A model generated the notes under the pieces. It was not told the DNA's origin and made no database searches. It saw only the letters and a list, made by a program, of their open reading frames with translations. The position numbers and the translations under genes were made by a program. Shown here piece by piece: positions 4,605 through 60,696 of a stretch of DNA of 64,000 nt (its first letter is position 1; each line of letters starts with the position of its first letter). Where the stretch lies: NCBI GenBank assembly GCA_950295325.1, contig OX485806.1, positions 15,500,001 through 15,564,000 of the forward strand. Reading direction: 5' to 3'. The DNA is from Polytrichum commune. Lineage: Eukaryota > Streptophyta > Polytrichopsida > Polytrichales > Polytrichaceae.

Positions 4605-5390
4605 CTTGTCTTTTCTTCCTTCCTTGCACTCCGATACACCTATTCCACCACCTGCACCGTCTTCCCAAGTCCTTCAGTACTACTAATTTCTCTGCTTCTC
4701 AAAAAACGAAGCATGATTGTTTGACCCAAGCATCATTTGCTCCCACAATTCCAGTAGAACCGCCCATCCGCGCGACCAAACCTATACCAAAAATGTACCT
4801 TCGATGTACCGGGACGAACATCCGAGCGCAGAATCTCAGAGTATGCAAAAGTAGGCAGCGTCAATGGAAACAATCTATCTATCTACGTTGTTACTTCATC
4901 ATTCCAGAAAGTGCTAAAAGCAGGAAATAAGCAGAAAAAGGGAAAGGAAATGCTGTGCTTACCGAGGGTACAGACGAGCCGAATGCTTGAGGTGGGGAAG
5001 TTGGGAAGCTTGGTCGATGTGGAAGACGAGGAGGTGTGACAATATTGGTAATAACCAATCGATCGAACAGCACGACACGGAAACCCTAATCGTTTGGAGC
5101 CTGGGCATGCCGAACCCTTTTCACACGGTCCCCGCACATTATTTACGGTGGGTTTACATTAGGGTCTAGTGTCCATGAAACCCTTAAATGCTCAAGCAAC
5201 CCAACATGGTTCACCACCTAATATTTTACTGTGGTTTCCAACCCACTAGGTGGTAATTTACTTGGATGGAAAGGTATTTATTGGTATGGGGCCGGTGTCC
5301 ACTACCATGTGGGTCAAAATCACATAAAAAAACCTCGTATTCCAAGCATGTAGGATTTTTTTGTTAGATTGGCATTGCTTGTTTTGAGAG

Positions 5391-5876: not shown

Positions 5877-8800
5877 ATGCATTGTGAAGTACCCATGGTT
5901 TCAACAACTCAAACTGTTTTGATTGAAGGATTGCCAATACCACAAGATGACTTTGAGAATACTGATCCACCAACATTCCAAGCACATCAAGCCGATCTCA
6001 TTATGGGCATGCGAGACAAACTTCAGGATCCTCCTCCTGCTGAGTTTAGGATGGAGGACTTAGTCTAGACAAATCATGTCACCAATGGGAAAGGTAGACA
6101 CAAGGGCTCAAGATTGGTTGTGATTCCATGGCATAGGTTGCAGGATTTCATATTAGGAGAGCAACATCACCCTGATTACCCATGCAGATTCAATCCTAAG
6201 GTCATTAAGCGCAACTTGCCTAACTCATTGAAATAACCATGTGCACACAGTCCGGCTCTTGTAGTAAGGTTTCTTTTTCTCCTCTCTCCTCCACTGGCTG
6301 TCGTTCATGATAGCTATCTATAATCCATGTAGTTCACATTAATTGTTCTTCAAGAAGTTTCTTCTGTATTTTAAACTTCAATCTATGTCATTATGTATCA
6401 TTCAAAGTTTGTGCTTCACATTTCAATGTGGGATTGTATGACTAGTAGATACCACTGCAATTTTGGGCCAGAGAACAAGTCTGATGTTGTCCCAGAGGAC
6501 ATGCAAACCCTTCTGAAATCCACCCAGAAACGAAGGATTAAAAAGAAACAAGCCAAACAGAAAAAATGGAAGAAGGTCATACCAGAGTATGACGCGTTCC
6601 CTCTAAACAAATCAATTGCTGCCAATGTTAAGCGTGTGGGCAAAACAGTTGGTGGTTTCTCCATTAAGAGGGGGTGCATGCGTTGTTTTGTTGCTAAACA
6701 ACTCTATCTGGATCCCACTTTGTGCATGTTGGTTTATGAGAACACCATGCACCTCAACGCACGCGATGAACATTGCCACGGATCAATGGTCAGTGGCTTC
6801 CGGTATGCATTGGGTGTTGGTATCTCAGATGAGATGAAATACAAAATAACTAAAATGCATGCTTTTGGGCTATCTCTGACATAAATTATGCAGCAACACA
6901 CCAAAGATGTCAGGGAATTGGCTTTGGTTAATGGCACTGTCACTCGCGATACGTTTTTGTTGCCTACAGATGTAAGGAATATTTGTCGCAGGCGTGCGGA
7001 AGAACTCTGGATGAAACACCTTTCTGATCCAATAAGCGTTCGTATGTGGACGCTAGAAAATCCTGATAATGTCTTCTATTATCAGGACATTCACTTATGG
7101 ACCTGAATTTTTCTACTCAGACTGATGCACCCTTCACACTTGGAATCCAAATTGCATGGCAACTGGAAATGATGGGAAAATTTGGTCACAACTGCGCACT
7201 CTCAATTGACGCAACATTTGGGACCACCCAAACACGGGTTCCACACACTTCCCTCTACATCCTTCACCTTTTATGCATGTCATTCACTATTTGTATGTCA
7301 GCACCTATGTCATGCACTGTCATTCCTATTCATAAGCTTTCATTAATGTCCTTGTTGGTTTAAGCTGGCAATTTACTTGTTTGTGACAGTATCCGCTATA
7401 CACTGTTATGGTTTTTGACGAATGGAGGAATGACATACCTGTGGTTTTCTTTGTTATCTCACGCACCCGCGAGCAGGACCTCATACTTGTTCTTCAAGCC
7501 CTCCACAATAAAGTTGCCGAGTACATGCCGAATTGGTGTCCTTCGTCCATCATAGTTGATAATGCCCAAGCTGAAATCAATACATTGAGGTATTGCCAAA
7601 TTTCAACCAAATTTTTCTTGTTATTTTCTACGAGTTACGGTTTAGGGATCCTTACAGTGTCATGCATGTGCATGCTTGTATGGCCGGATGCGAAGATCTT
7701 CCTTTGTCTTTGGCATGTTCGGAAGGCCTGGGCAGAAAATGCCATTAAAAAAATTCCCACACATGCAGAATGTGCTGCAGTCCTCCAGATGGTGGGTGAT
7801 ATTATGTATGGTAACGGATGTGGTGTGGATGATGACCCAATCCATTGGGCTCTAAAACAACTCGACATTATAACCAACACTAGATCACGATCAACCGCAT
7901 TCATGAGGTACATGAATGACAACTGGATAACAAAGGCACCGATGTGGTGTGTGGGTGCGAGAAGGATACCTCATGCTGGCCAAAACACTAATGCCGCCAT
8001 TGAGTCGTACCACTCTAACTTGAAAAGTATATTAACCTCTACAAAGGAGCGTTTCGTCGGGAGATACATGGATTGGCTCATCTACCATCTCACCGGTGAT
8101 GTGGTTACACATTACTGGTATGGAGTCCAATGCAAGGCATTTGGGTTTGTACGAAACAAACATCACGAAGGTATTGTATGTTTAGCCATCATTCGCGCAT
8201 CAAGAATATCAGATACTAATGTGTTGATCTGCATGGAGGACAACATAACATACGTTGGATCTGTGAATAATAGGCCCAAAGTATGGACCATACATTCACC
8301 TGATTCAGAATGGGCCCAGTGTGATTGTCCAATCGCACGGGAAGGTATGATATGCAAGCATACCATGAAGGTCTTTAAGATGCTCCACCCCGACATCCAA
8401 TATGGTGTCATTCTTAGGCAGGCAGGTACTCTGCACGGGGTTGATCGTAGCACTCCAATGTCTCAGTGTTATTCAAAGGTCCCACCGGTTGTCATTCGTG
8501 AAGGACACGCGCAACATGTTTCGGATACCTTCACAGACAATGTCACCAATGACATCGTGGATCTCCATACTGAAATCATTGGGTACATTGGTGGATCACA
8601 ACATCCAATGCTCATGGACGAAGAAAACACTCCCGAGATGTCATCTCATGTGTTGTTGGGCAATATTTCGACCTGTAATAAACTTTCCCAATACGACATT
8701 GGAAGTAGCCAGGCTGCGGCGGGAACAACAATTCATAATCTATACACGACATTGACGAAGAACGTTGATACTTACGCCGCTCTTCATGCTCATTTGCTTG

Positions 8801-8964
8801 CGGACTTGAAACACATCTATGGAAAGCAAACTGAGCTCATTGCTTGCGGTGACGCCATGTTGCAGTTGACATCCACACCCATGTCATTCCCTACACGAGA
8901 TGGTGATAACTCCCTCAAACGTCATCGGAGCTTTCTGGAAAATCCACCACCCAGAAAGAAGTAA
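5877..8964 (+). pseudogene. MURA-type transposase with SWIM zinc finger, frame broken
   Basis: Coding blocks can be followed at 5877-6235, 6393-about 6860, about 6895-7095, about 7097-7230, 7390-about 7590 and about 7657-8964. The N-terminal part has a Cys/His cluster (GCMRC ... DEHCHG, about 6673-6780). The DDE residues of the MULE catalytic fold are visible: Asp at 7208 (SIDATF), Asp at 7558 (IIVDNAQ) and Glu at 8002 (NAAIESYH). A SWIM zinc finger, CDC...CKH, lies at about 8321-8362. At the intron before 7390 the flanking frames join neatly (TTQTR|YPLYTVMVFDEW). Damage: an in-frame TAG at 6066 and a one-base frame change near 7090-7096, after VFYYQ. The catalytic residues survive, so decay looks recent. 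Confidence 0.85.
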
Positions 8965-24389: not shown

Positions 24390-27300
24390 ATGGCGACGAA
24401 TTCGTATGTATACGTGTTGATAGTGATCTTCGTCCTGCTGGTGCTGGGGCTCCTGGCATTATGCATCCTGACTTGCCTGGGAGTGCGGTGGTGCTGCCGA
24501 ATTGGCAACCCCAAGCCCAAAGTTCCCTATGTCCCACCTGGATTCTCTCTGCAACGACTAGACACCATCCGAGTCGAAACCCCTGAATACAGCGCCCAAA
24601 TTGCAGCCGAGAATGCCTTCCTGGACGCTCTACCTGGCCTCCCGCCAAGGTAACTGCTTGTTCCATCATCGCAACATCTCCAACTTCCTTTGCATCTTAG
24701 TAGGCGATTGCAAGCTTTATTTGTATATGTTGTTTTTGGGTGCAACAGGTTCAATTACCAGGAGTTGTACAATTCTGATAATTTTGGTTTATAATAATAA
24801 TAATAATTTTTGGGTTGATGTTGGTGGTGGTGCTACAACAGGTTCAATTACCAGGAGTTGTATGTGGCAACCGGTGGGTTCAAGACGAAGCTGGGAGAGG
24901 GAGGCTCCGGAGAAGTGTATGAGGGTTTGTTGCCCGGAGGAACGAAGGTGGCTGTCAAGAGGTTGCAAAATGCTAATCAAGGAGACAAGGAGTTTCGGAC
25001 TGAAGTTGCTACGATTGGGAACATCCATCACATCAATCTGGTGCGCTTGAAAGGATTCTGTCTCGGTGGGATCCACCGATTACTCGTCTACGAGTACATG
25101 GTATGCTCAAATTATCCCGGAGTCAAAACCAACTTTACTCCTCTTCATTACACTACCAGATGATGAGGTTTTGGAATTACTTCTCAACAGACTGCTCTCA
25201 TTGAATCAAATGGCAACATGGTGATGCTTGGGAAGAAACGGGAGAGAGAGACAGAGGGCATCGAGAGGAACCCATTCATTGATGATGACATCATTTGTGT
25301 CTGAATTAGTAGCAAAAGGTTTTACACTTTCGGATGTTAAAATTTTGGTGCTCGTGAGAAGGAATTCCTCTAAAGTGGCAGGGGTCACCATCCAGAATCT
25401 CTAGGTATTGTTTTTGACTTTTAAGAGAATTTCTAGATTTCTTTTGAGAATTTACACCTAATATGTAAAGGTATAAATCATCCGGGTACTAAGATATACC
25501 AATTGATAGATACCATCTGTGTATGATGATACACCTTCAACTGTCGATGTTTTTAAAGTTATGTAGAAGCATCCAAATCTCCCTAGCTATTTTTTATCAC
25601 TTCTAAGGAAATTCATACCATAAAATCACCAAGCAGCAAGTAGCTATTGTTGTTTCCACAAGAAAAGGAGGAATAATCTGAGCACATTACTTTTTTCTGT
25701 TTTTTCGAGCATTGCTTTAGTCTCTAGTGTTATGGTGATACGTGCCAAAAATCCAGTCCATTCTGTTTTATTTTTTATCCTAGTTTTTTTTAACACTTCA
25801 GGTTTACTTGTTTTGTTAGGTCTTGACTTTTTTGCTTTTGAGCACAACCCACTTTGGATTCCTGACATATTAATTTCCAAGCTGTAAAAGACACTTGGTT
25901 GTCCTATTTATCAATCTCTTACATCAAGGAAGGATCCTACAAACGAGATTCATTCCTTACTCGTGGCAACATATACTTTTTGTCAACACTGAAAATAGAA
26001 AAGAGATTGGACACATATTACGTACTTTAATTTAGTTAGTACCATGACTATAAAACTTCGTCAAATTTCAGTCTTAAAATTGCTTATATTACCTGGGCTT
26101 GAGTTCTCCTTATTAACAAAAAAAATCATCAATGTTCTCAAAATTAGGATGAAGTTATTATTATTATTATCATTATTATTATTATTATTGCTGGTCATGG
26201 TTGATATAACCTAGCTTTAATTCTTGTTGGAAACAGGTCAACGGTTCTCTTGATCAGTGGTTGTTCATGGATGACCCAAAGTCGACCAAATTTCTTGATT
26301 GGAAGACTCGATTTGGGATTGCAATCGGAACAGCAAAAGGGTTGGCGTATTTGCATCATGATTGTGAGGAAAGGATTGTCCACTTGGACATCAAGCCCCA
26401 AAACATTTTATTGGACGACAATTTCAATGCAAAGGTGTCAGATTTCGGTCTTGCAAAGCTTATGAACCGATCCGAGAGCCAGGTACAGAGTTGATGAGAA
26501 ACTGTGAGCACTCTCCCATGTAAACATGTTGATACTTGCTGTACATTTCAACAAATTCCAAAATAAAAATAAAATAAAAATCATAATGGCCTAAAGGTAT
26601 CACTATTATGGGGCTCTCCATTTCAAATTGATTAAATTTTGCTATAAAGTTGAAGTATTTGGAGCCGTCGGGTGGGTGTTTGTAAGCCGGCTTATCATAA
26701 GCGGGATATAAATGTTGAAAGTGTCTATTATGAAGTCCAAAAGTTCAATCACAAATCTCCATGAATGATTAGACTCTATACCCTAGGAAGTGGTCACATC
26801 ACATAAACTATTTTGACAATCTGGTCATTTATGCTTGCAACTTTTCATCAGCCCATGATATTTGTCGTTTTAGCCAATTAGGTAATGTTTTTCATGGTAA
26901 CACTGAGATTTGTGATGACTATGATGAATCTTTAACTTTCTCATTTCTAAGTCCATTATGAGAATAATCAAAAATTTACCTCAAATGTTTTTGGGTCATA
27001 AATCTAAGGAAAACCTTTGGCAATGTCATATGATGAACACATTTTAGAAATTCTTTGCCCCTCATATCTTTAAAGGCCAATTCTTTATTAACCAAATTCA
27101 CATCCTTGAGATACCTACATTATATATTTGATTTGCGTGTGACATTAAAATTGGTGTGACACGTTAATTAGAATAACCTCGATGAGTTGTCGTGTAACAA
27201 CAAGTGTCCCATGCCACCTACTTTGGGCACCACCCTAGTGAAAACAAGACCATTTTCACGGGCCAATGACAAATAGTGTGGACCGCACTCAATCAGATTT

Positions 27301-29596
27301 ATCGTGTAAATAGTTGTTGTGTTGCCAAACTTGTGAACTCTAGGTCCAAGGCAACCCTAAACTACCGGATGATGGTGGAGAGATACCCAAATCTCAAGGA
27401 AAAGGTTGGCGGTTTGATTCCCATATGTGAAATCTCCTCTCTACTTGATGAAAAACTTGCCAGGTGGTCAATTGCCTCATGTGCTTTGGCGCTGGCCTGT
27501 CCGCCTTCAGTCTCATATGAAAAGAAAAAAACAACAAACAAAACAAACAAAAACTTGTGAACTCATGATTTTCTGCGGCGGTTGGTGATTGTTTGTGAAT
27601 GATGGTTAGGTGGTGACACAAATGCGAGGAACCCCAGGCTACTTAGCCCCCGAGTGGCTCCTCCTCTCCGCCGTCACGGATAAGAGCGATGTGTACAGCT
27701 ATGGCATGGTGCTCCTCGAAATTTTGAGCGGCCGAAGAAACCTCAGCCTTGAAGAGAGCTGTGACCTTGACAAGCAGTACTTCCCGAGATGGGCGTGCCG
27801 GAAACTGGAGGAAGGGAGCAGCGTTTCGGAAATTATTGACCCCCGGCTCGTCCCCTTGAGTCCTTACGATTTGGAGCAAGCCGATCGAATGCTCCGAGTC
27901 GCATTTGTTTGCATCCAGGTACTCACTTTTGCCAGACTAGCTAGGTGTGGTGGCACTACAAGCAAATGAGACTTCGACAACTTCTCTTGCGTCGGTGAAA
28001 ACCGTCTTGCGTCATCGAAATCCAAACATTCTATCACCGTAGTAGATCTGCAAGAAAATTCACCTAGGTTTCATGTGCTTGTAGTGTGTCCCAGGTATCC
28101 CGGTTCATGGTCTAGGATGATTACCTATGTCTTTAACATTCATGAAGTATATTATGTGGGTGAGTTTACACGAGGGTCGTGGCAAGTTCGAAAAAAACTC
28201 CATATTAGAGCGGTCCTCTTGGTCGAGAGCATAATTGTGGACCCAAGAAGTCTACAGTAGGTTCGAGCTCCAAGGTGTGGAAGAATGAAGCCCTACAAGC
28301 ATCTGAGGCTTGAGCAACACGTCCTTTGTCGATGAATTTTTTCCTGCGTCATTGAAGAATCTGTAAATCTATCACCATGGGAGTTTTGTAGATTCTTCCA
28401 CCGATGTTGGATGTGGTGCCCAAGTCTCAAATGCTTATACTACAAGTGGAGCTAATGTGGCATCACTTTTCTGCCAAATCTCGCCTGTCCCCATTGAAGA
28501 AAATACTCTTCCTAGTTTGAGAACCTAGTTTGGAGTCCAAAAAGTAAGTCCATTAAGGGGTGTTGTGACCCAAGTTATTTGGAGCCAAACTTTGATGTAA
28601 ACCCACCCTTAAAAGCAATGAGACGATTGAGTGGCACAACAACTCTTGTATCCAACGAACCTTTATACATGCAAGTGACCAAGACACAAGCCAATCCCCA
28701 TAATATTTCGAATCTTATTGTGGAAGATGCAGATGTCAATGTACTGGTGAAATCTACAAAGGAAGCAAAAGAATATTGTTGTCTTTAGGGCTCTCAAAAC
28801 TACCTTTTTTTCACAGGCTCAAGGGTTTATACAAGGAGAGAACTTAGAGATTGACAACTAACATATGAATCCTCGGCAATTGTCCTACGTCTTTGGAAAT
28901 CTACCACAATGGTAGATTTGCTAGGACTCATAGGGCTTATATAGTGATTTGACATAGCAAAACTTCATCTCTCCATAGTGATAACAAGCACATGAGTCAA
29001 ACGCTAAAATACAACTTTCCACCCAGTTAGCGGGCCCCTTGCAACCCTCGACTGGGACTTCGAATAATTTGCACCAAATCCATTGAATGGTCTAGAAAAC
29101 ATTACAAGCATATGAGTCCTGAGCAATTGACATGCGTCGCTGAGAAATTGTCCTTTGTCACTTGAAAATTTGCACAGGTGGATTTGCATATATTTCTCAC
29201 CAGCGCAAGACGATTGCCTAGGACTCACAAGCTGGTATTGAAAGAAGCATTGACGGATTTTTTGGAGTCATGTCGACTGTTGGGATGAATATATTTCTGA
29301 TGTTGCGTTGTTGATACTCGCAGGAGGATATGATGGCAAGGCCATCCATGCCCATCGTGGTCCAAATGCTGGAAGGGATACTACAAATCCCACGGCCACC
29401 TCCCCTCCCCATGCGATTTGCGCTCAACACTCAATTTGCACGCATTTTGGATCTTGGAGGCGCTACCGAATCCATCCTCGAGTTTCCAGGAATTCAGATT
29501 TTGACAGAGTCGAACTCGACATTTGGAAATTCCAGGAACTCAAACTTTTCTTTCACGGATCCGAGCGCAAGTCCTTTACCAGCTAGTCCAAGGTGA
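24390..29596 (+). CDS. Receptor-like kinase without ectodomain (SD2/LRK-related)
   Basis: Five exons: 24390-24649, 24842-25100, 26237-26482, 27610-27918 and 29324-29596, giving 448 residues. The N-terminus is a few residues, then a hydrophobic span (about 8-33) and a Cys-rich juxtamembrane segment, so almost nothing is exposed outside the cell. The kinase starts with [13 protein letters not shown] (about 88). It has the Gly loop [10 protein letters not shown] (104-113), catalytic Lys126, the loop HLDIKPQN (His222, Asp224), DFG at 242-244 and [13 protein letters not shown] instead of HRD makes it a non-RD kinase, as seen in SD2 and LRK10-like groups. The tail is Ser/Pro-rich. The ligand is unknown and it may act as a co-receptor or cytosolic-side relay; that is inference. 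Introns are long (up to about 1.4 kb) and one acceptor is duplicated. Confidence 0.9.
24743..24862 (+). repeat. Duplicated splice acceptor of RLK exon 2
   Basis: The 27 bases starting caacaggttcaattacca occur at 24743-24769 and again at 24836-24862. The second copy is the real start of exon 2. Using the first would read [14 protein letters not shown] and then stop at TAA. An (aat)n run lies between them. Confidence 0.93.
26155..26191 (+). repeat. ATT microsatellite in RLK intron 2
   Basis: Near-perfect (att)n run with one cat interruption, about 45 bp before the exon 3 acceptor. Confidence 0.85.
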
Positions 29597-31611: not shown

Positions 31612-34600
31612 TCATACCAAAAGAAAAAGGATCATGATAAATCCACCAATAGTAATCTCTGTGGGACCATATTGCAGCAGATGTGAATCAAACATGACCT
31701 GTATTGTCTGCAAAAATGGAATGGGTGAGCAATGATAGTTCTCGTTGTAGAGGGCTCCGCCAAACAATCATTTCCCAAGCCATGCGGTCAGGTGATGAGA
31801 ACAACAGCATCTGCTGTAAGTAAATTACTGAATTACAGAAATTCCAGGAGCTGTAGCTCTAACCGTACCTATTACAGATTCAGAGCTCACAAGTGTAAAC
31901 ATGTTGAGAAGTGTTAATGTGTCTTTTGTCTACTTACATTTTACAATGACCACTCATGGTGGTTCACCAAGAGCACTGAATAGTTGAAGACATATAGAAA
32001 CTGACTCATGTTCAGCAATTCAGTAGAGGGAGGTTTTAGGAGAAGGTTCTATTGGCGCAATTAGTTTTAGCTGTAGCATTGTAGTGAACGATTAGTTAGT
32101 TGGAACTTTCTAGTAAGATGAATTCTCTAGAAGTTACTCCGTTTAGGTTAAGTAGAACTCTCTAGAAGGCATCCCGTAGAACTCTCTGGAAGAGTCAGGT
32201 AGTTCGGTAGGATACTTAGGGTAGACCGTTTGAGTTTGTAGTTACTGTTGTAATTCTGGTAGGATCATCTGTAGTAAAGTTGAATTGAGAGAAGTTGAAT
32301 ACATGTGTTGTGTTGTTACGTGAGTGATGTCTGGTTGTTTGTCACAATAGGTTATGGGCCGCTGTACGTCGATTTGTTCTGCTGTACAATCCAGGACCAC
32401 AAGAGCGTTCGCAATTTCCATAGAGTTACTGAGGTTGTAGGTTTTGATTTAATTTTCAAATTCACCGAGAGGTTAACCAATATTTCATCATGATAGATGT
32501 TGGTGATATCCGCGAGTCTAACACAGTCGATAGGTATGATGGTTCAAATTTCTTGCTCTGGAAGATGCATATGCGCTTTATCTTCCAATCTCGTGATATG
32601 TACTCCATTGTCAATGGAACGCTCAAGAAGTCGTCTCTCTCAACTCCTGCTGAGCAGCTTCAGTGGGAGAAGCAAGACAAACATGCCATTGTCGCAATTC
32701 TTGGTACTCTTGACTCTTTCCATAAGCGAGAGGTTATAAATTGTTCTACCTCACATGAGATGTGGACACAGCTTCAGGCTTACCATGATCAGCATTCTGA
32801 AGAGTGCATCATTGCTCTTCAAGCTAAGTACTACAATTTTCGGTTAAATGAGGGAGAATCTATTGCTGTCTTCATTAGCACTCTTCAGCAGCTTGCTAAG
32901 CAACTCACTGATCTCGGTCAGACTATCACTGAACAGCAGTTGATCAGCAAGATCATCAGTGGTTTACCGTCCTCTTTTGATCCTTTACTTTTAGCCTGGG
33001 ACAATCTTCCGGCTGCGAATCAATCTCTTCTGGCGCTTCAGTCTCGGCTTTTCAAACTCCAAAGCAAGCTTCGTGATCGGGCTCAGCAGGTTGACACACC
33101 TGTTGATCGTGTTTTCTTCACCAAAGGAGGTCCATCTGCTGTTTCTCCGCCGGGATCCACTCCTACAGTTGAACAGAAAAAAGAACGTGCCGATAAGCTT
33201 GCAAGGCACAAGCGCCATGCACGATGCTATCAGTGTGGCCAGCGAGGCCACTTCGGCAAAGATTGCCCGAATGACTCGTCTACTTCGGATGATGTTGCTT
33301 CGAAACGCCCGCCTCCTCCACGTTTTACTCGCCGACAGTCATCTCAACGGCAACACAAGGGCAAGAAGAGCCAGGCTCACATTACTGCTAGTTCTATTCA
33401 TTCCGACACCGGTACTGACTGTTCCTCTGCGTCCAGTGAAGCTTACTGCGTCAACACGTCATCGGAAGATTCTGCCGAGGATCTCTTCTGGTTCGCTGAC
33501 TCTGGTGCCACCGAGCACATGACGGACAAGATCCAGTGGTTTACACATTTCCAACCTGTTGACGATGAGTGCTGGACAGTTACAGTGGCGGATAATAATG
33601 TTCTTTATGTACGAGGACTAGGCGATATTCCTGTTCAAGCAACTATTAACGGCGTTGTGACTTCCTTTCGTCTCAAAAACGTTCTGTATGTACCTCAGTT
33701 GCGTAGAAATCTTATTTCTACAGGACGTCTGACTGAGAATCATGTCGCCATTGTTCATCTGCGTGACCAATGCAAAATAATCACAGATGACGGCCATGGT
33801 CCTCTTCTAATGATCGGATCAAAATTCCATGTAAATTACTAATGATTTGTAGTTACTGTTGTAATTCTGGTAGGATCATCTGTAGTAAAGTTGAATTGAG
33901 AGAAGTTGAATACATGTGTTGTGTTGTTACGTGAGTGATGTCTGGTTGTTTGTCACAATAGGTTCAATAAAAAGGTCAAACTGAGTCAATTTTATGTAAA
34001 TAAATGGCGGATATTAACAACTTTCAAAGTGAGTAGCAGATGAGCTAGATAGAAATGCTCTGTTCTTAGAGATATCCTATCTCTTATCTGAAGCCTTGTG
34101 ACGGGTATATCTTCTTCCTATTTCCAGTGCACTCAGTTCTTATAATATCCAGGGTTGAGGAATAAGGCCGGGTTGAATGATCACCTGGGGCAACACGGAA
34201 AGGCCACCGATACCTGCTGCATCTTGCCACAGCTACAGAACTCTTGGACAGATGCATGTTCCATAGTTCTTGAGAACGAACTGACCACATACTGCTAGCC
34301 CAGTCACGACAATGACAAGAAGTGGCAAGCCTGGAGCATTCACTAGTTGTGCAAGAACTATTAATGTGCACACTACGCTCATTCCTTGCAGCACCACCAT
34401 CACTCTCTCCATCCTAGTATAATCATCGATATATGGTGCTAGGTATCCAGGAACTCCTCTTCCAAGCCCCTGCAACGGTTTATGTCAGGATGCATTCCTC
34501 ACACATCGAAGACACACGGAGATAAATCATAATCCAAGAAAATTGTAAATTTGAATTTATGAAGGATAGAGTTGAGTAGGACTGCTTAGAACAAATAGAA

Positions 34601-44104: not shown

Positions 44105-47100
44105 ATGGCCCAGATTGTTCGGAAGAAAAGTGTCCAGTGGTCATACAAAATATGGGGAGATTGTACCACTTTTGTCTGTCGACCTCTCGCATCAACGCCA
44201 GGAGAATGGTTTTTGTCACAAGATCGAGGAGTAGTTCCTTCAAGCAAAAATATGGAGCTAAAGAAATTGGTGCTTCCAAGGAGCACTTCACACTATAATG
44301 TCAGGGGCACAATGAAAGTCCAAAACCTTAAGGGACTGCAAAGGATCACTGCAAATAATGATGGCCTTGGTTTTAAAACCTTTCCTGCCACCTTGACACC
44401 GTTCACGACTTTGGGGAGTGGTTCCTACAAATTGGAACATTCAAGGGGCTTTATAAGCCTGGATCATGGGCTTAATGTACTAAAAGATGATGTTGACAAC
44501 CAAAGCTTGGATTTTATTGAGAATCGCAGGGCGATGGATGAACTCCTGCTTGACCTTCAGAAAAAAGTGGAGAAGGTAAGAGAAAGGGGATCTATAGGTT
44601 TCATGAGAGTGCAAAATATGAACTGTCCATTTTGTGTGAGAAGCAAATCACGATTAAAGTTATCCTTAATTCAACTGAAGTTTTGGTCGAAAGTTGGTCG
44701 TTTTGCATACAATACTTTCCATATTTGGTAAGTTTTCAGTGCATGTTTGGAGTCGGTGTAGAGGTTTGAACAAAGAATGTTCTATATGGGTTCATTGAGG
44801 GGCAAACTCGATTTGTCATGCCAACTCCACACCAACTCCAAGCATACACCGAGAACTTACCAAACATGGAAAGTTTTATATTATGCAAAACAACACCTGA
44901 CCAGAATTCTGGTTGAATTAAAGGATACCTCTATTGTCCATCAATTTATACTTCGTTCATGTGTCTCTGCATTTCCAGCCTCGTACTCTGGAACTCTTGC
45001 TGTTTGGACTTGGGTACCAGGACCCTCCAATCCAAGAGCAAATTTTTGGGACACTGATCCAAATTTGCAACCTGTAGTTTTTGATGACAAATTTATTGAG
45101 TTTCCACCAACATTATTAGTTGATGTGGTGAATGATGAGCAGGTGCGGCTTGGGGGTGGAGTAAAGGCGGTAGAGCGGCACAAAAGGCGGAATAAATATC
45201 TACCTCGTGAGCGCATTGACCACCTCCTCGACCTGGGCTCTCCATTTTTGGAACTCTCTCAGGTATATTTCCTACTTTGTGCTGATGTCCATCTTTATAT
45301 CTCAATAAAATTCAATCTGTTGAATTCTGCACGACATGCTCAAGTCCTCCCTTGCACATGTTTGTTGTTATCTTTTGCTTTCAATGCTCTTGGTAAGAGC
45401 ATGCAAGTTGTGTGTGCATGTATGATACATAGAAAATGTGTAATTATGCTATGAATGATGAGGGACGTCCATACTTATGGTATGGTGGCTGTAATGTAGG
45501 ACAAGTCAATTGGTTGAATCATTCTTTTGAAAATTACTTACATTGTAGTCTAATGGTTTGCATTCGCATTACCGTACGTTCAGGTCAGGTTGGGCAAAAT
45601 TTTGCCTATCGTTTAATTTTGTGAGACCTAGGTGACTTAGGCACCTTGTTCGAAATATTTTTGTACTCTTGGTAACTCACGCATCATACGCATTATTTGA
45701 ATATGTTCTTATCTTAGACATGATGAACATGTAAAATTGTGGTGTGGGATGGTTAGAGGGCAAGCTGGTTGTTTCTAGTAGTTTTTAACATGTATTTAAA
45801 TGCCATGTAGTGTTTGATACATGTAATTCACGCATTTGTTTATGGATATTGGTTCTTTTACAGAAAATCCTCAATATTAGGCAAAATTTCTTATAAAATT
45901 TCTTCAAGATTTCCCAAAGATTTCAACAATAGAGAAACAATCAATCTACCTGTGCATAGGGTATGCTTATGTTGTTGTGTTGCACTTATGTACTGTTTGG
46001 TGATTTTTTGCCCTTACTTTGATGAAGGGAACTGAATAGTGGTGAATGTGATTATGGAGGTAGCTTGCAGGGCACAACTTATACACGGATGACCTGCCCT
46101 CAGGTGGCATCGTGACAGGAATCGGCTCTGTCCATGGCCGGCTGTGCATGTTGGTTGCAAATGACCCCACTGTCAAAGGGGGTACCTATTACCCAATTAC
46201 TGTGAAAAAACATCTACGAGCACAGGAAATAGCAGCTCAATGCAAGCTACCATGCATATATCTTGTTGATAGTGGTGGAGCTAATCTCCCTCGACAGGCA
46301 GATGTTTTTCCAGACAGAGACCATTTTGGTCGTATTTTTTACAACCAGGCTCAGATGTCAGAAGCAGGAATACCGCAGATTGCTCTGGTTTTAGGATCAT
46401 GCACTGCTGGGGGTGCGTATGTGCCCGCCATGGCAGATGAAAGTGTGATTGTGAATGGAAATGGTACAATTTTCCTTGCTGGCCCACCCTTGGTGAAGGT
46501 AAGGGTATTTCTCCCTGATGTATGTCTTTGCTGCTTCTAAGTGATGACCTGGAAAAAAATACCTAGCGTTTTTTGGAGTTCACTCACTTACTTTATATTG
46601 TTTACAAAGGTAGTGGTCGAGTTTGGTACATTAACATCTGATTTAGTGTGGCCACACTATCCATCATCTACCCATGACAATGAACATTAAACTAATGATC
46701 GTGGGCCACATTACTTTCTAGGATCTCCTTAATGTCTATTATCGCTGGCCACATGATATACCATGAATATAGATTAACGTGGGTCAGTTAATTATGACAA
46801 GTGGCATAGACAATGTGGCAGATGGCTCAAGGATATGAGGCTTCAGTAATTTGTAACAAGACACCACATCAATTGTAGAAAGTTTGAAGATTAATGTCGC
46901 CCATGATAAATATGTAGCACATTAATCTATTGCCATGTGAATTCAAATACTTTGTGTAGAAATTATGTAAGCCAGAGTAGAACCTACTACAGATCAACGA
47001 AATAAGCAGTAGTCTCAAATATGAGATACATTGCAGACTACTTTATGGGTTTATGAGTAAAAGAGAGGATGTAATACAATTAAATATGTTGCTAAGAATC

Positions 47101-50100
47101 TCTTTAGTAATGAGTTGTTGGTGTTGCAGGCCGCAACTGGAGAAGAAGTGAGTGCAGAGGATTTAGGAGGTGCAACATTACATTGTAAAGTGTCTGGAGT
47201 TTCTGACCACTTTGCAACTGGTACTATTACTCCACTGGCTCAATATTATTATCTCCTTTGGATTTCCTTAACTCGAATTCTGCACGTTCCATATGACTAT
47301 TCGAAAAGGAACAATAGTCTTATCCTTTAACTCAACATTATTTTTGGTTGGGAGTTGTTGTTTTGCATACAATAACTTCCATGTTCTGTAATTTTTTGGT
47401 GCATGCTTGGAGGTAGTGTGGAGGTTTGAATGAAGAGCATCATCCTATATCGGTTCATTAGGGGTCAAACTCATTTTGGCATGCCAAAAGGTGCCAACAT
47501 GAGTTTGGTCCCCAATGAACCAAAATAGGTTGCTCTTCATGCAAATTCAATCACTACCTCCGGGCATGCACCATGGCAAGTGAAAAGATTTTTTTGATAT
47601 TGAATGCAAAACAACCAGTGGAAAACCATAGGGGACCAACTCCCGACAAAAATCCCCATTGAGTTGATGGATAGCTGTTAATGTCCAGCAAGATGGCTGG
47701 CTAAAAAACACACATCGCTCGTTATGTGTTGGTTATGTGTATGTTTTTTTCAGTTCATCCTGACATGTCTAGAGTAACATCTGCAACTGTCTGCTGTACA
47801 TTTGTCCATATCTTTTGTCTAAATTAAGATATAGATGTTTCTCCTAAACTTCCTAATAAAATACCAAAATTCTTGCTCTTTGACAGATGAGCTGCACGCC
47901 CTAGCTATTGGTCGTAAGATAGTCCGGAATTTGCACCTAGCAGGCATTTTCAACAGAGCTTCTGGGATGTCTACAAGAGAAGAAGTGAGGGAGCCTATCT
48001 ACAGCCCCGAGGAGCTTCGAGGCATTGTTCCAGTCGATCCACGGAAATCCTATGACATTCGTTCTGTGATTTCTCGCATAGTCGATGGCAGTGAGTTCGA
48101 TGAATTCAAAAAACTCTACGGTCCCGTAAGTTCCTGACCAGGGTGGGCGGACTTGCAGATTTTGTTTGTTTGCATGTACTGTATGGTTAGATCTGATTTG
48201 GGCAAGTCTCTGCCTAAATCCAACCTCCACATCATCTTTTGTGGTGTTTCAACCACTTACATGATGACATGTGGTAATTTTCTGGTCCATAAATCTACAC
48301 CTAATCTGACTTCTGCAGAGTTTGTGTATCCTATATCAATTTGTGTGCATTTTCTACACTGACAGTTTCTAGGACTCTGGGTGATTCACATGCTGATGAA
48401 TTGTATGTGCATTTCGAACAGACTTTGGTGACAGGATTTGCCAGAATAATGGGGCAGCCGGTGGGCATTATTGGCAACAATGGCATTCTCTTCACGGAAT
48501 CTGCACTGAAAGGGGCACACTTCATTGAGCTTTGTGCTCAGCGCCACATTCCACTTATCTTTCTCCAGAACATCACAGGTTTCATGGTTAGTATTTTGAG
48601 TCCGCTTGTAAAGTTGAGTCTCGTTGTTAGAATGATCCTTTCATGCCATGAATTGTACATTAAAATAAATGTGTAATTAGTGGGATGAGAAATCAAGTGG
48701 ATCACACCATATATTTTTCTCCAATGGAAATCAGAGTAGATGGAAAGTGAAAACCTTGACAGGTGCCCACTCTAATGGTTAATTCTGTTATTTACTAATC
48801 TAAATTTTTATGCTCCTGATTAAACTACACTAAATAGGTAGATTAGTGTTAGATGAAGATTAGTGTTAGAGCCAATAGTTACCCAAAACACTAAATGTCA
48901 CTTGAAAGTACAATTAGTGTTACAATATCCTTTGTCTTTATTTTGCATTGTCAAAGTTGAGTTCCATTAAGTTCAAATTTTGTAATATCAAATTCCTAGC
49001 ATATTACATTTTCTATGAGGCTCACATATTCTACCTCCAATTCTTCATTTGAAGATCTACAAAAAAATGTCATCTAACACTAAATGCGCTTTTGTAAATA
49101 TTCAAAGTTACTAATTGGTACAAATAGTGTTAGAGTTGACATTTAGTGTTCTAACACTATGAAGACAATTGACATTTAGCGTTTTCGTCAACTATTAGTG
49201 TTTCCAACACTAATCTACCTATTTAGTGTAGTTTCATTTCAACATCTATCATGGTGTATGGCAGGTGGGATCCAGATCAGAGGCAAGTGGCATCGCAAAG
49301 GCAGGTGCCAAAATGGTTATGGCTGTTGCTTGTGCTAAGGTACTTATCCACACCATGTTATTGAAATAAAGACACAGATTGTTCAGCTTCAATTACATGG
49401 TTTTACTATTTTTCAGAGATCGTAATGCTCACATGTTCAATTTTGATCAAAACATATCTAGTACACCGTCTATGGTATTTAGTGTCACTAACTATTTGGA
49501 ATTACGCAAGGTTATAACTTCTAACACATTTCATTTGTTACCAACAAAGATCAAAACAAAGCCATATGGACAATACGCAACATAGATGACTTTTACTTGG
49601 TAAAAAGCTATATTCTTAGCAAAAATTTATAGCACTGCGTAACTATGTGACGCTAAATATCATAAACAATGCAGCAACAATTAGTAAAGTCCAATGATGG
49701 GGTACTTTGCGTCTGCCGGGAGTCGAACCCGGGTCTATTGCTTGGAAGGCAATTATCCTAACCGTTGGACTACAGACGCTCACATACACGGCACGTACAT
49801 TATGAGACCCTGGTTCACGTCACATCCTACGTGTATTCTCTGGATGGGCTTGGGCTGTTGTTGGTAAAAAGATGAAAATTCACATAGATGGTTTCAAACA
49901 AAGCTGGACCGGTATGAAGGTGAATGAATGGTACTGATAATCAAGATTAAAAATGATATCAAAGAACCTACCCGTGGGATATTACTAGTCAAATATCGAT
50001 ATTTGGTGAGTATCTCAAGGTGTGAGAATCTTTGTATACCTGAGTTATTAATTGGGTCACTACCATTCTAAACCATATTGATATGAGGGCGATTTTACCT

Positions 50101-54247: not shown

Positions 54248-55267
54248 CTATCGTAGGGTGACATAGCGATTAGTGCCATGCTTGGCCCAATGCTCCCTAA
54301 GATCCACTGGATGGCTAATGTTAACACCTTCTAAGACAAGTTTCTCAAGAAGCTTTTCAAAAGCTCCAGCACTCATCTTGCGCCCTGCAAGGCGTGAACC
54401 CCGTTTCTTGGGATTCATGGGCAGAGGAAACATTGATATCATTGTAGTGCAACACGCAGACTGCCAGCCACCATTCCCCCATCTATAACATTGTTGATTC
54501 AAGCCGGTGCAGGAGCAGTAGGGGATAGGAGTGTTCAAATAAACCCTACTTTTCAGAAGCTCAGGCTCACGAATTTGCCCTTCTTCTTCCTCGTCATCAA
54601 CCTGTGTCACACCTTCCGGGTGATGCCCAGGCTGCTGCTGCCCTTGATGTGTTAATGGCCAGTTCCGTGATTTCTTGGGTGGTGGCTGTGAGTGTTTACC
54701 CCTAACAGTAACATCTGTCAAATTTGCACCTTTTCTTTTGGTTCGTACATAAATCTCAATATCGGGTTCTTTGTCCCTACCAAACCTATGAATTCCTGCT
54801 TGACAATGAGTAGACTCCGCATCCAACACCATGATACCTGAATGAGACGCATGGCCTGCACTCGGGTGACATTCAGATGCCAGTGAACAATTTTCCGTCA
54901 GCTCTACCCTTTGCAACATTTTAGTCCCATGCATGAGTCCATCTTGTGGTGACTGCGGTTTCTTTCGGCTCCGCCCTGCTGCTTTCCGCTCCAATCTCGC
55001 CAGTGTGGCAATCGCTGCATCCCGGCTTAAAATGGCAGCATCTCGATCCACAAGGGCAAGGTCCCGCTGCATAATTGCGTTGTCGCGCTCTTGGTAGGCG
55101 GCCATCTTCTCAGTGAGAGCGATGCTCTTCTCCAAAACTGCCGCATCCCTTTCTGCAATGATGTCAATGACCTCTAATGAGCAGCTGCTTTTGCGTTGTA
55201 TACAATAATCACCCCTATCCAACTCCGCTTGCGCATCTATGTCAGATGGGTCCCCTCCGCATGTCAC
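54248..55267 (-). CDS. BPC: BBR/BPC (BASIC PENTACYSTEINE) GAGA-binding factor exon
   Basis: A single 339-codon exon from the acceptor 'ggggcag|gtg' at 55267 to TAG at 54248. An N-terminal acidic stretch ([12 protein letters not shown]) leads into a coiled coil of repeated ERDAA/RDAAI units, as in group II BPC proteins. Then follow a basic region ([19 protein letters not shown]) and the diagnostic C-terminal domain with five spaced cysteines ([23 protein letters not shown]), [16 protein letters not shown] and [16 protein letters not shown] proteins bind GA-rich DNA and recruit chromatin regulators. Odd: the frame has no ATG before the coiled coil and an in-frame TAA lies at 55393-55391, so coding must come from an upstream exon. 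The nearest in-phase one is exon 9 of the kinase at 55867-55935. Confidence 0.92.
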
Positions 55268-55866
55268 CTGCCCCAAATGCCTTTCAGTACATCTGTGCAG
55301 AAGAAATACCCAAACCCCAAGGATTGTGCAGGTTCTTGTTGCAAAGTGAACATCTCTACAAGCACCTTGAGTGTCACACAAAATAAAACCTTAAAAAGAC
55401 AGGCATTGTGTTTATACATGATACGTGACGACTTATACAAACCCCCAACAAGTATTAAAATAATATTGAATCCATATTTAGCAAACACTATTAGATAGAG
55501 GAAGAGAAAATAAAGTCATTGTGACAGTGGTGATTAGATATGTGGGAAGTGAGTCTAGGTCAAATCTCAAATTTATATGAACTTAAATTTCATCATTATT
55601 TATTTTATATAAATGTATGCTCCAAATGAGTAATGCAGTATACAAATAACCTAATAGGGTCTCTTTTATCACTTTTATATTAGAATATTAGGTACAAGAA
55701 GTCGTCTTAGCCCCACCATATGACACCAAAAGGGCCACTTGAACCTTTGAGGAATAACACAAAATTCTTTTTCATATTTTTTCACAGTTTACATGCATCA
55801 CAAGACACTCGTAGAAAGACAATTGAGTAGGTGGACAAACATGGAAGTCAATGTGAATGAACTTAC
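55268..55866 (-). other. Intron or gap between kinase exon 9 and the BPC exon
   Basis: 599 bp with a good donor at the kinase side (actgcg|gtaagt) and an acceptor at the BPC side. No minus-strand ATG exon with a donor joining the BPC exon in frame was found when I read the stretch by eye, and no clear promoter was seen. Confidence 0.5.
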
Positions 55867-58800
55867 CGCAGTGCCTTCAGCCTTCACATCTTCTACATGG
55901 AAATTCCACTTGCTTACTTCCCTCTTGTATTCAGTCTGCAAATTTAAAGATAGCATAGTTAGGAGAGCTATCTAACCAAATGGTGATGAACTAGCTATGA
56001 TTCAGAAAAATACTGAAAACTGTGGCAACAGTGCATCTATTGAATATACAAGAACAAATCCTATGCCAACCTGTAGCTTATCCACACTGAATGAAGTTCT
56101 TTTAAGTGCAAGTCGAGCAGCGTCAATGATCTGTAAAAGAGTTCACATGAACTGGATGAATATGCGACATCGTGATGGCAATCAAATATTGCATACACAC
56201 TGACTACCCCAAGCAATCTTACTACTTGCAACATTAGGCAGCCTCAACTCAGGTAAAGGTAAACAGCTAATTCAGGATAAACTACATTGGTCACCTTCAA
56301 TTGTTTGGCACGTTCGGCTAATGGTGGAAGGCCATCTAGAACATTTTGACATATAAAATCATAAGTTTGAGCACTCTTGAAAAACGGATGACTCAGTAGC
56401 TGTTCAGCAGTTGGTCGCTTTGCAGGATCCTTGACAAGACATATTGCAACCATCTCCTTGAAAGACTGCAACATGGCCAGTACAAAACCAATCTTAAAAC
56501 TGCAGAATATTGGATTAAAATGCAAGAAAAATCAAAATCAAAATCAAACAACACCCTGTCCGATCATATCCGATCACAAGCTCACTAAAGTAACTCACAC
56601 TGGAGCAGCTCTTTGCACATGTCTCATCCAACAATGAAAGGCAGGAATGGAAGGTCAATAGAAAATCCTGTAATACCAACAAACCCAAGTCACAACAGAG
56701 GTCAACATCCAATTTAATTTCAAATCTATCAAGGTATTTTTGTCCCTTCTTCTGAAATGTATGTAAACATGCACACTCAAATGCGGAAGAGTATTTGCCT
56801 TCACATGAAAGGTTGATAATGATATGAGTAAATAAATTATGTTGCATAACAACAACCATGCAGTAAACTGTGTCTGGCTTGTTCATGCTTGATTTGTTCA
56901 TTTTCAATTAAGCCAACATCAGACACGTTATGGACAAAAAAGGAACTTCCTGTTGCCTCTATTAAAATACCTCATAATTGCACAGAATGGCTCGGTATTA
57001 TCAGGGGTCAAGATTTTCATTCGGGCAACTTTTGTCTCCAATGAACATGTTCAATTAGTATGCTTTGGGTTTTTTCAAAGGTTCATTAATCACATGATTA
57101 TTCTGAGACTTGATGCATAGGTACCATTCTCCACCTTTCTTCAGCTTTGTCTCATTATGAGTAATGTTTGAAGGTATCATGAAGACGATACTTACAGATC
57201 ACAGTAATTAAAGATGAGGGATTTAACAACAATGGAATAGGTAGACATCTTTTAGAGTACCTTTGAAGGAGGATACTTAGAAAAGGGTGTACGGCCATGT
57301 GCAAGCTCCAGAGCAGCAATCCCAAAAGACCAGATATCAGCTCTGCCAACATTACAAACTCAAAGGTTGGTCCTCTAATCCACTTTCTAGCCACTCATGT
57401 GCAGATTAGACATGGTAACTTAAAACAAATGGGAGAATAATCAGTGCAGTGACAATAACTTACCTGGAATCATACCCATGAAGCTGTTCCATGACTTCTG
57501 GAGCCATCCTACACATATATGATGTAAAACCATAAGTATTCCAGCTATCGGGGTATAAAAGTTACCAACATACTCTGATGAATCCATGGACAGACTTTAT
57601 TACACCTAAAAAACAACTTAAGACCAGTCTGAAGCAAAATTAAATAAAACATTCAATTGAACCACAATGATCATACAAGCTAATTACATGACAATCCTTC
57701 AGCATCCTTCAGCAGACAGCAATTATCAACTAACTTCATTGGTTATTACATCCTCCGTTACTTCACCTCCCCCAAACTGCTTGCAACAGTTTGAAGATGT
57801 TGTTGTACAATCCCTCAAGTACCACTCATATTCAACTAGTTGTAGGCCAATTTTTACTGCAACTTTCAGCAGGCCAAACGTAGGACCAGAATATAGATAG
57901 AGGAACTAGTATACTTACAAGTAGGCAAGGCAGACTTTAGAATGATACATCAGGATATCTTCATACTATTGGAGGAGATTTTAATCCCCATTTTCACATG
58001 CACCTCGCTATAAGACGCACTATGAGTCACATTCACCTACAGGCAGCCTAGACAAACCCACCATTTATGAAATCCAACAAATGAGACACTTCATCCACAT
58101 GGATGAGAGGTGAAGACTGCACACCAGTAGCGAGTCCCTTCAAAATCATTTCTTGGTTGTCGAAGGTCACCCATGTCTGGTATGGATGCAGATATACCAA
58201 GGTCCCCAAGCTTGACCACTCCATTTTCATCTATGAGAATATTTCGAGCCTGAATACCAGGAAGCAGAAAATTAATTAAGAAAGAAATACTGCAACATGC
58301 TACACAAAACAGACAACAGGTCAGTGTGGAGAGATAACAGGACAATGCTTCATCACATCAACAGTCTTTACTCCCTGCACATTTGGCAGAGTATGTATCC
58401 ATATACAACATCTTGGTATCAGAAGGCACAGGTTTGGGTTGTTTTTAATAAAACAGTGTTCTGTTACAATATTTCTGTAAAAGAAGGCAGGGGTTTGAAT
58501 TGTTTGTAGTAAAAGATTGTTCTGTTTCAATGTTTTTATAACAAAAGGCTAGTGCACGTCAAACCAAAGGAGAACAGGACCTCTTGAGATTGCGACTTAA
58601 GCCCCAGGGTAAGATGTCTTTGTAACAATGCCACCAAGAGCCTACACAAATCGTTAGATCGCCATGCTGGGCAAGACATGCTAAACACAGGTTTCTAAGC
58701 AAATATCCTCACTGGCAAGTCAAGTTCTACCAAGTGCTGCACTTTCAAACTCAGGTAACAACTCACCTTGACATCCCTGTGGATGTGACCATGTTGATGC

Positions 58801-60696
58801 AGGTAATTAAGAGCCTTGAGAGTCTCCTTCAGAATAGTAGCAATCACAGGCTCCTCAAAACCATCTGGAAAAGCTGCCTTCATGATATGTACACATGACC
58901 CACCAGCCATGTATGGCATCACAACCCAAAGACTATTTTTTGCAACGAAGGAGCAATACGCCCTCAAGACATTCGGATGACTTATCAAGCTCATTGCTGT
59001 TGCTTCTGCACGTACTTGATCCTGCACACAGAAGTAGCAATTAAAACCCTACAACTTTTTGTAGAGCCCATAAAAATCCTTGCTGTGGTCTCATATATTG
59101 AGTTGCATTTCTCCTTGTTGACTTCACCTTGACACATCATTCACCAACTCCAAGGCAAAAGCAGCAAGGTCATGGGAACTCCTTATATTCTCATTCCAAG
59201 ACTAACCGTCCATATAAGTTCTTCCTCTTTAGGGTATAATGGCATCCTTATGCAAAGTTAATACAGAAAGTCACATAGCAGACTAATGACACATCACAGA
59301 GTGTAACCCAATTGCAGACATCACCAAGGCCAGTCAATACGTAAATGCTTCCTAGTTCAAGAAGTGAGACACACTGACTCGACCATGATGAACAATTTGA
59401 GCTGGAAATTACTGGATGAGTTACCCTATGTTAAGCATGGAGCACGACCAAGAGAATGTCATAATGTTATGCCTGATGGTGAATGTTATGCCCAGTAATG
59501 AGCACTCGAAGTGTAAAATATGTAAGAGATTCTCCAGAACTCCACCTCCAACTTAAAACCCTAACAATTTCCTCTCTCCAACTAGATTACAAGAATCTCC
59601 AGCAGGTTCCTTAAGAACCTGGCATTTCAAACGCCATCCCAATTGCACCCGGATGCAAGCCATGACACAGTACATAGTAGCTGATGTTTCTTGTCCCCAT
59701 TTCTCCAACGTCATTACTCATAATACAATCGATTGGTGAAAATTCCAAATACGAGAATCTGTTAGACTCAAAGTGCTTAATTCCCAAGAATGTTCATCTC
59801 CATAATTCAATTCACGGGAGATCATCATCGAAACTTAGGGTTGCAAATTCAACTTGAGCTCCCACACACAGAACTCCCTACTAATACCGACCTTCACCAC
59901 CACCGCCCTGCCTTTCAGCCACGATATACTGCACCAAGAGTTTCACCATGCCCAACCCCTCATCCCCAGCATTTCCAGAGAGAGAGAGGACACAGGAGCG
60001 CGCGAGAGAGAGAGAGTGGGAAAACAGAGTTAAGGAAATTGAGAAAAGGAGGGGGACATACTAGAATGACACAGAATGACAGCCATGACCCACAGAATTT
60101 ACACTCGGATATTCCTCCTCGCCATTTCCTCAACCACATTACGTTTGGTGCAGTTGATTGGTGAACATGGGTTACAAACACGAGAACCCTTCAGACTACT
60201 TTAAATTCCCAAGGAGGTTCAATTCAACTCTACCATAATTCAGTCACGAGAGATCACCATGGCAACTTAAGGTGCACTTTCAATTGGAGCTCCCACACAG
60301 AGAAAAATGCTTGCCCCTTTCAGCCGCGAAATACATGCACCAAGGGTTTCACCATGCCCAAACCCTCATCCCCTGCATTTGCAGAGTCCGAGGGGACAGA
60401 GGAGGAGCTCGCTAGAGAGAGATTGGGAAAAACAGGAGGTAAGGTAAGGTAAGGTAAGGCAAGGCAAAATGGAGACATACTAGAGTCCGGTGGCAGGTGG
60501 CCGGATCCAGGCATTTGATTGCGACCACTTCATTGTTGGGAAGGCAGATTGCGCGGAAGACGATGCTGCTGCCGTTCGCACCGTGGCCTATCTCCTCCAG
60601 CAGCTGGTAGTCGGTTTCGAAGAGCGGGTAGCCACGGTGGTGGCCGGCAGCGCGCTCGTCGTTGCCGCCGTGATCGGTGGTGCGCGGGCCCTCCAT
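55867..60696 (-). CDS. GCK/STE20-type protein kinase (BLUS1/SPAK-like), 364 codons before the junction
   Basis: Nine minus-strand exons, all in phase: 60696-60481, 59021-58767, 58249-58125, 57508-57464, 57342-57261, 56667-56599, 56465-56295, 56130-56071 and 55935-55867. The first ATG is at 60696. Signatures: [15 protein letters not shown], Lys61 in [34 protein letters not shown] (Asp155), [33 protein letters not shown] and [15 protein letters not shown], then [19 protein letters not shown], which in relatives opens the regulatory tail. The group phosphorylates targets in stress, light and ion-transport signalling. Oddities: DLG at 173-175 replaces DFG, the Gly loop ([11 protein letters not shown]) has two extra residues, and exon 6 is poorly conserved. 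The usual tail was not found; the next in-phase exon encodes BPC. Confidence 0.9.
59976..60018. repeat. GA-repeat tracts in kinase intron 1
   Basis: Two (ga)n runs separated by gacacaggagcgcgc. On the transcribed strand of the kinase they read as (ct)n. They are potential GAGA-factor sites. Confidence 0.6.
60434..60466 (+). repeat. 5-bp (aaggt/aaggc)n tandem repeat beside the exon 1 donor
   Basis: Six consecutive 5-bp units starting ggtaaggtaagg, about 15 bp inside the intron from the donor at 60480. On the minus strand they form a pyrimidine-rich run. Confidence 0.85.

Follow-up and report, generated by a model that had tools for sequence, protein, structure and literature searches.

A putative BBR/BPC GAGA-factor gene directly downstream of a MAP4K-like kinase gene lacking its tail in Polytrichum commune: probably two neighbouring genes

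The closest described relatives of the locus reported here belong to two protein families. For the BBR/BPC (BASIC PENTACYSTEINE) GAGA factors, the cited part of PMC6477699 reports BPC domains from land plants only, with five cysteines and WAR/KHGTN as the motif of the domain and TIR/K at the C-terminus of almost all members. It also describes 5'UTR introns in all BBR/BPC genes studied, several 5'UTR introns and exons in the Physcomitrella BPC gene, and a coding sequence interrupted in group II only. In Marchantia, a non-flowering land plant, BPCU (Feminizer) and BPCV are U/V-linked gametologs in sex determination, and the cited parts of PMC10721683 and PMC13182070 mention no neighbouring kinase for them. 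For the plant MAP4Ks, whose clade III includes BLUS1 and MAP4K4, the cited part of PMC8415026 gives the signature GTPyWMAPEv in 94% of the green-lineage members, an S(G/A)WNF motif in 64% of clade III, and a long disordered C-terminal half of 300-600 aa in almost 70% of MAP4Ks. Some plant MAP4Ks are recorded there as partly or wholly without this half, so that tail loss as such is already known. No kinase-BPC fusion was present among the literature matches listed.

The window, i.e. the whole stretch of 64,000 nt that was analysed (C4:15500001-15564000), comes from a 408-Mb assembly of 64 contigs, seven of which are at least 42 Mb long. On its minus strand a kinase gene lies about 600 bases upstream of a BPC/GAGA-factor gene, and the initial annotation had proposed that the two might be spliced into one fusion gene. 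The plus strand of the window carries exons that encode a carboxyl transferase domain (Pfam Carboxyl_trans) at 46064-48673, which we take to be perhaps those of methylcrotonoyl-CoA carboxylase beta. Pfam also detected mobile-element frames with a MULE transposase domain and copia-type gag/pol (7387-8961 and 32448-33839), and fragments of another protein kinase gene (24819-25160 and 27610-27966), which is unrelated and looks receptor-like on inspection, all on this strand.

The BPC frame from 55267 to 54248 encodes 339 aa and was matched by GAGA_bind (PF06217) with an E value of 1.4e-70 over residues 24-339 of 339 (profile 22-284 of 284), the match starting at nt 55198. It shares with BBR/BPC proteins this domain, N-terminal ERD repeats (54989..55171, minus strand), which resemble the alanine-zipper coiled coil of the family and are named by the published description, and a C-terminal BPC domain (54248..54526, minus strand) with cysteines at residues 251, 253, 260, 272 and 273 and WAKHGTN at 54289-54269 (PMC6477699, in the part cited). 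It differs from them in a main exon whose frame has no ATG ahead of the coiled coil, in the kinase gene directly upstream, and in a C-terminus that reads TLR followed by the stop codon and not TIR/K; the last is a conservative change and was not taken as exclusion from the family. The protein is probably to be placed as a putative basal group IV member. Unlike the Marchantia gametologs it was found as one copy, on a 59-Mb contig, and is not known to be sex-linked; searches of the whole genome with Pfam GAGA_bind and with the protein gave a single match at E ≤0.001, and a PDB sequence search with the BPC protein gave no match at E 0.01.

Two earlier observations on this exon were borne out, namely that no ATG precedes the coiled coil and that an in-frame TAA at 55393-55391 closes the frame upstream. 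The first in-frame ATG, at 55105, lies within the ERD repeats and downstream of the start of the GAGA_bind homology, and four out-of-frame ATGs (55292, 55262, 55236 and 55146) precede it in the exon. As the first ATG falls inside the repeats and the homology begins at 55198, the coding start should lie upstream of the exon or at a non-ATG codon; the earlier conclusion that an upstream exon is needed was right.

The kinase gene comprises nine exons from 60696-60481 to 55935-55867, with 364 codons, GT-AG introns and no stop. On the minus strand, exon 1 (60481..60696) bears the start ATG, exon 2 (58767..59021) HRDVK, exon 3 (58125..58249) GTRYW and DLG in place of DFG, and exon 4 (57464..57508) MAPEV. 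They are followed by exon 5 (57261..57342), exon 6 (56599..56667), which has the length of its counterparts in the paralogs and a much altered sequence, exon 7 (56295..56465), exon 8 (56071..56130) and exon 9 (55867..55935), whose donor at 55867 is in phase 0. The kinase domain is of the STE20 type (Pfam Pkinase, E 8.1e-59), and a PDB sequence search gave SPAK (E 4.7e-81) and OSR1 as the best matches; an NCBIfam search gave matches only far below the cut-offs. The protein resembles plant MAP4Ks of clade III (PMC8415026, in the part cited) and SPAK-OSR1 in its kinase domain and in a WNF motif after it, and differs from the former in the absence of a tail and in the motif changes given below.

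Side features were found in the introns of this gene. Intron 1 contains a tandem duplication (60447-60156 and 60038-59731) with 71.9% identity over 324 aligned positions, and intron 2 a 61-bp tandem repeat of 2.1 copies (58421-58549). The minus strand of the window contains seven (CT)4-or-longer runs, and three of these (60421, 60016 and 59988) fall within intron 1, two of them as near neighbours in a single copy of the duplication. Since GAGA/TCTC is the BPC binding motif (PMC6477699, in the part cited), the BPC protein may act on the kinase unit.

The two best kinase paralogs, L001 and L002, are on the same contig as the window kinase. Exons 2-9 have equal lengths in all three genes, except that exon 8 of the window kinase is 6 nt shorter than that of either paralog; for exon 1 the comparison is with L001 alone. 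The intron positions of the window kinase, including the splice position at the end of exon 9, are common to both paralogs; in these, exon 9 is followed by tail exons, which tblastx aligned with one another (L001rc 5056-5193, 6548-6799 and 8170-8277). The same tblastx search recognised no such tail exons on the window's minus strand and gave scattered short matches, none of which fell in the interval from exon 9 to the BPC exon; the comparison of L001 with L002 served as positive control, and a fast-evolving tail could escape this search. The earlier statement that the kinase has no tail in the window was thus confirmed, and its alternative, a tail that had been overlooked, found no support in the search with the paralog tails. 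As judged from these alignments, the tail is really missing.

By synonymous distance L002 is nearest to the window kinase (dS 1.04, against 1.55 and 1.58 for the other two pairs). The window kinase has accumulated 78 unique amino-acid changes, compared with 11 and 4 in the paralogs, and its branch omega is about 0.39 (dS about 0.50), compared with 0.05 for L002 and 0.04 for L001, i.e. about 8 times that of the nearest paralog; these values are rough, being derived from pairwise Nei-Gojobori values near saturation. HRD and VAIK are retained, while DFG has become DLG and the glycine loop contains a 2-residue insert relative to L001 and SPAK. GTRYWMAPEV replaces the GTPCWMAPEV of both paralogs and deviates from the family signature, and SKWNF replaces their SSWNF and deviates from the clade III motif. 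These changes suggest altered or lost catalysis. One reading of them is a decaying locus, in which the kinase is turning into a pseudogene and translation of BPC now begins at the internal ATG (55105), leaving a shorter coiled coil. The altered glycine loop, DLG, GTRYW and exon 6 would fit such decay, as would the 78 unique changes, but the frame runs through 364 codons without stop or frameshift and eight introns are intact, which speaks against a pseudogene. The branch omega likewise argues for constraint on the kinase frame at this synonymous distance, and a start at 55105 would have to follow four out-of-frame ATGs and discard the GAGA_bind homology upstream of it. We regard decay as very unlikely. 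The kinase is most likely a truncated clade-III-like MAP4K paralog that ends in or just after intron 9.

The proposed fusion depends on a splice from 55867 to 55267, and both sites were scored with matrices from three related kinase genes (26 acceptors and 25 donors), a small set. The acceptor at 55292 (TGGGTATTTCTTCTGCACAG|A) scored 7.67, which is reached by 1.3% of the AGs on the minus strand of the window, and the acceptor at 55267 (CTGAAAGGCATTTGGGGCAG|G) scored -0.88, which is reached by 21%. With more pseudocounts the scores were 7.85 and 1.52, respectively, and 2 of the 26 true acceptors fell below 55267 in a leave-one-out calculation. A matrix from the 18 paralog acceptors gave 8.17 and 1.84; the eight acceptors of the window kinase scored between 4.8 and 16.0 with it, so that 55292 is inside their range and 55267 below all eight. 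The stronger site is 25 nt upstream of the weaker one and exceeds it by 6 to 8.5 bits. Among the 26 known acceptors, 3 are preceded within 40 nt by an AG with a better score, at distances of 29, 31 and 40 nt, and none within 28 nt. The splice favoured by these scores thus uses 55292 and not 55267, and the BPC exon entered there would extend over 54248..55292 on the minus strand (first base 55292, or 55267 via the weaker acceptor).

Joined to 55292, exon 9 reads ATG TAC TGA and the kinase ends as EGTA-M-Y-stop after 366 aa; the join to 55267 is not the one favoured, contrary to the first proposal. Of that proposal, the joint frame remains: exon 9 joined to 55267 is open over 703 codons without inner stop, in line with the length first stated, and 55267 is an AG that provides this frame, although not the best acceptor. 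The donor at 55867 was likewise judged correctly as to its phase 0. Its intron side is GTAAGT, but its whole score of 3.1 is below 4.46, the 5th percentile among the 25 donors used for training; the paralog donors at the equivalent position score 4.4 and 6.7. The agreement in phase carries little weight in favour of a fusion. Among the 13 AGs in the open BPC frame (55390-55199) two are in phase 0, namely 55267 and a very poor one at 55222, and 55267 ranks third by score, so the match at 55267 is unremarkable.

A true fusion gene, in which the main or a regulated transcript is spliced from 55867 to 55267 and encodes a 703-aa protein with an N-terminal kinase and a C-terminal GAGA-binding domain, would account for the open joint frame, for a kinase without a tail of its own and for a BPC exon without an early ATG. 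No better BPC start exon was found in intron 9, and 55267 is within the range of real acceptors by the leave-one-out comparison. The much stronger acceptor that leads into a stop, the modest phase match and the low donor score nevertheless make this reading unlikely. Small chances are also given to a switch within one kinase-BPC transcription unit that would encode the sole GAGA factor found, the choice between 55292 (stop) and 55267 (fusion) yielding either the kinase without a tail or a kinase of 703 residues carried to chromatin at GAGA elements.

Entry at 55292 requires the exon that precedes the BPC frame to end after the second base of a codon, and the donor of exon 9 does not suit this. 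The donor of exon 4 at 57464 (score 10.9) is in frame with 55292, and such a transcript, skipping exons 5-9, would encode 561 aa. It is conceivable that kinase and BPC exons form a single transcription unit without a fusion protein. Kinase transcripts would then be spliced to 55292 and stop at M-Y, the BPC exon would be mostly 3' UTR, and BPC would be made from other starts or by exon 4-to-55292 skipping. The strong in-frame donor of exon 4 and the gap of only 574 bp between kinase exon 9 and the BPC exon entered at 55292 favour this, and by analogy the several 5'UTR exons of the Physcomitrella BPC gene (PMC6477699, in the part cited) could belong to a gene further upstream. To skip five exons would be unusual, however, nothing points to common transcripts, and the TATA boxes and AATAAA of intron 9 allow separate genes; a shared unit is therefore considered doubtful.

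This intervening region (intron 9 or intergenic, 55293..55866, minus strand) may hold both the end of the kinase gene and the BPC promoter. Reading through past exon 9 adds 22 codons before a stop and gives a kinase of 386 aa. Two TATAAA[AG] boxes, at 55679 and 55609, compare with 0.18 expected, and one AATAAA, at 55604, with 0.47 expected. A search of intron 9 for a BPC first exon with the phase of 55292 and a donor score of at least 4 gave two candidates on the minus strand (55390..55406 and 55775-55717), neither of them above chance; random sequence contained a mean of 1.5 such candidates, and 65% of 1000 draws had one or more. The longest open frame of intron 9 (74 codons) was discarded as a candidate, its length being attained by 18.8% of random sequences, and a bacterial-type promoter and terminator scan was uninformative for a plant. 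The codon score in the BPC frame was -4.6 over 55381-55292 and +4.1 over 55291-55202; it is a weak measure, as the other frames of 55291-55202 scored +2.0 and +2.2 and two of the nine true kinase exons scored below 0.

The reading we favour, with some reserve, is that of a tail-less MAP4K paralog and a separate BPC gene with its own 5' exon, two products encoded on one strand. It had been named at the outset as an alternative with a small or distant first exon, and it fits better than the fusion, although that exon was not found. The upstream gene would be a duplicate of a plant MAP4K (SPAK/OSR1-like) gene that lost its tail after exon 9 and then evolved fast. Its transcripts might end by read-through into intron 9 (386 aa) or by the splice from 55867 to 55292 with Met-Tyr-stop (366 aa). 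A 5' exon belonging to the BPC gene itself, either small or far away, would end after the second base of a codon and be spliced to the BPC coding exon at 55292; the promoter of this gene plausibly lies within intron 9. This reading is preferred because 55292 outscores 55267, exon 9 joined to 55292 stops, the codon score changes sign at 55292, TATA boxes are present in intron 9, the paralogs have tails and the kinase frame is intact. The universal 5'UTR introns of BBR/BPC genes and the several leader exons in Physcomitrella also favour a separate BPC leader. Against it count the missing first exon in intron 9, the small splice model, the weak codon score and the restriction of coding interruptions to group II, at odds with a coding BPC first exon at this locus.

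A fusion, if real, would link a signalling kinase with GAGA elements within a Polycomb-recruiting family of factors (PMC6477699, in the part cited), to which the liverwort sex-determining factor also belongs (PMC10721683, in the part cited). If they are not fused, the locus is an annotation trap, in which automatic pipelines could print a false kinase-BPC chimera, and it holds a MAP4K paralog that has kept an intact frame after the loss of its tail.
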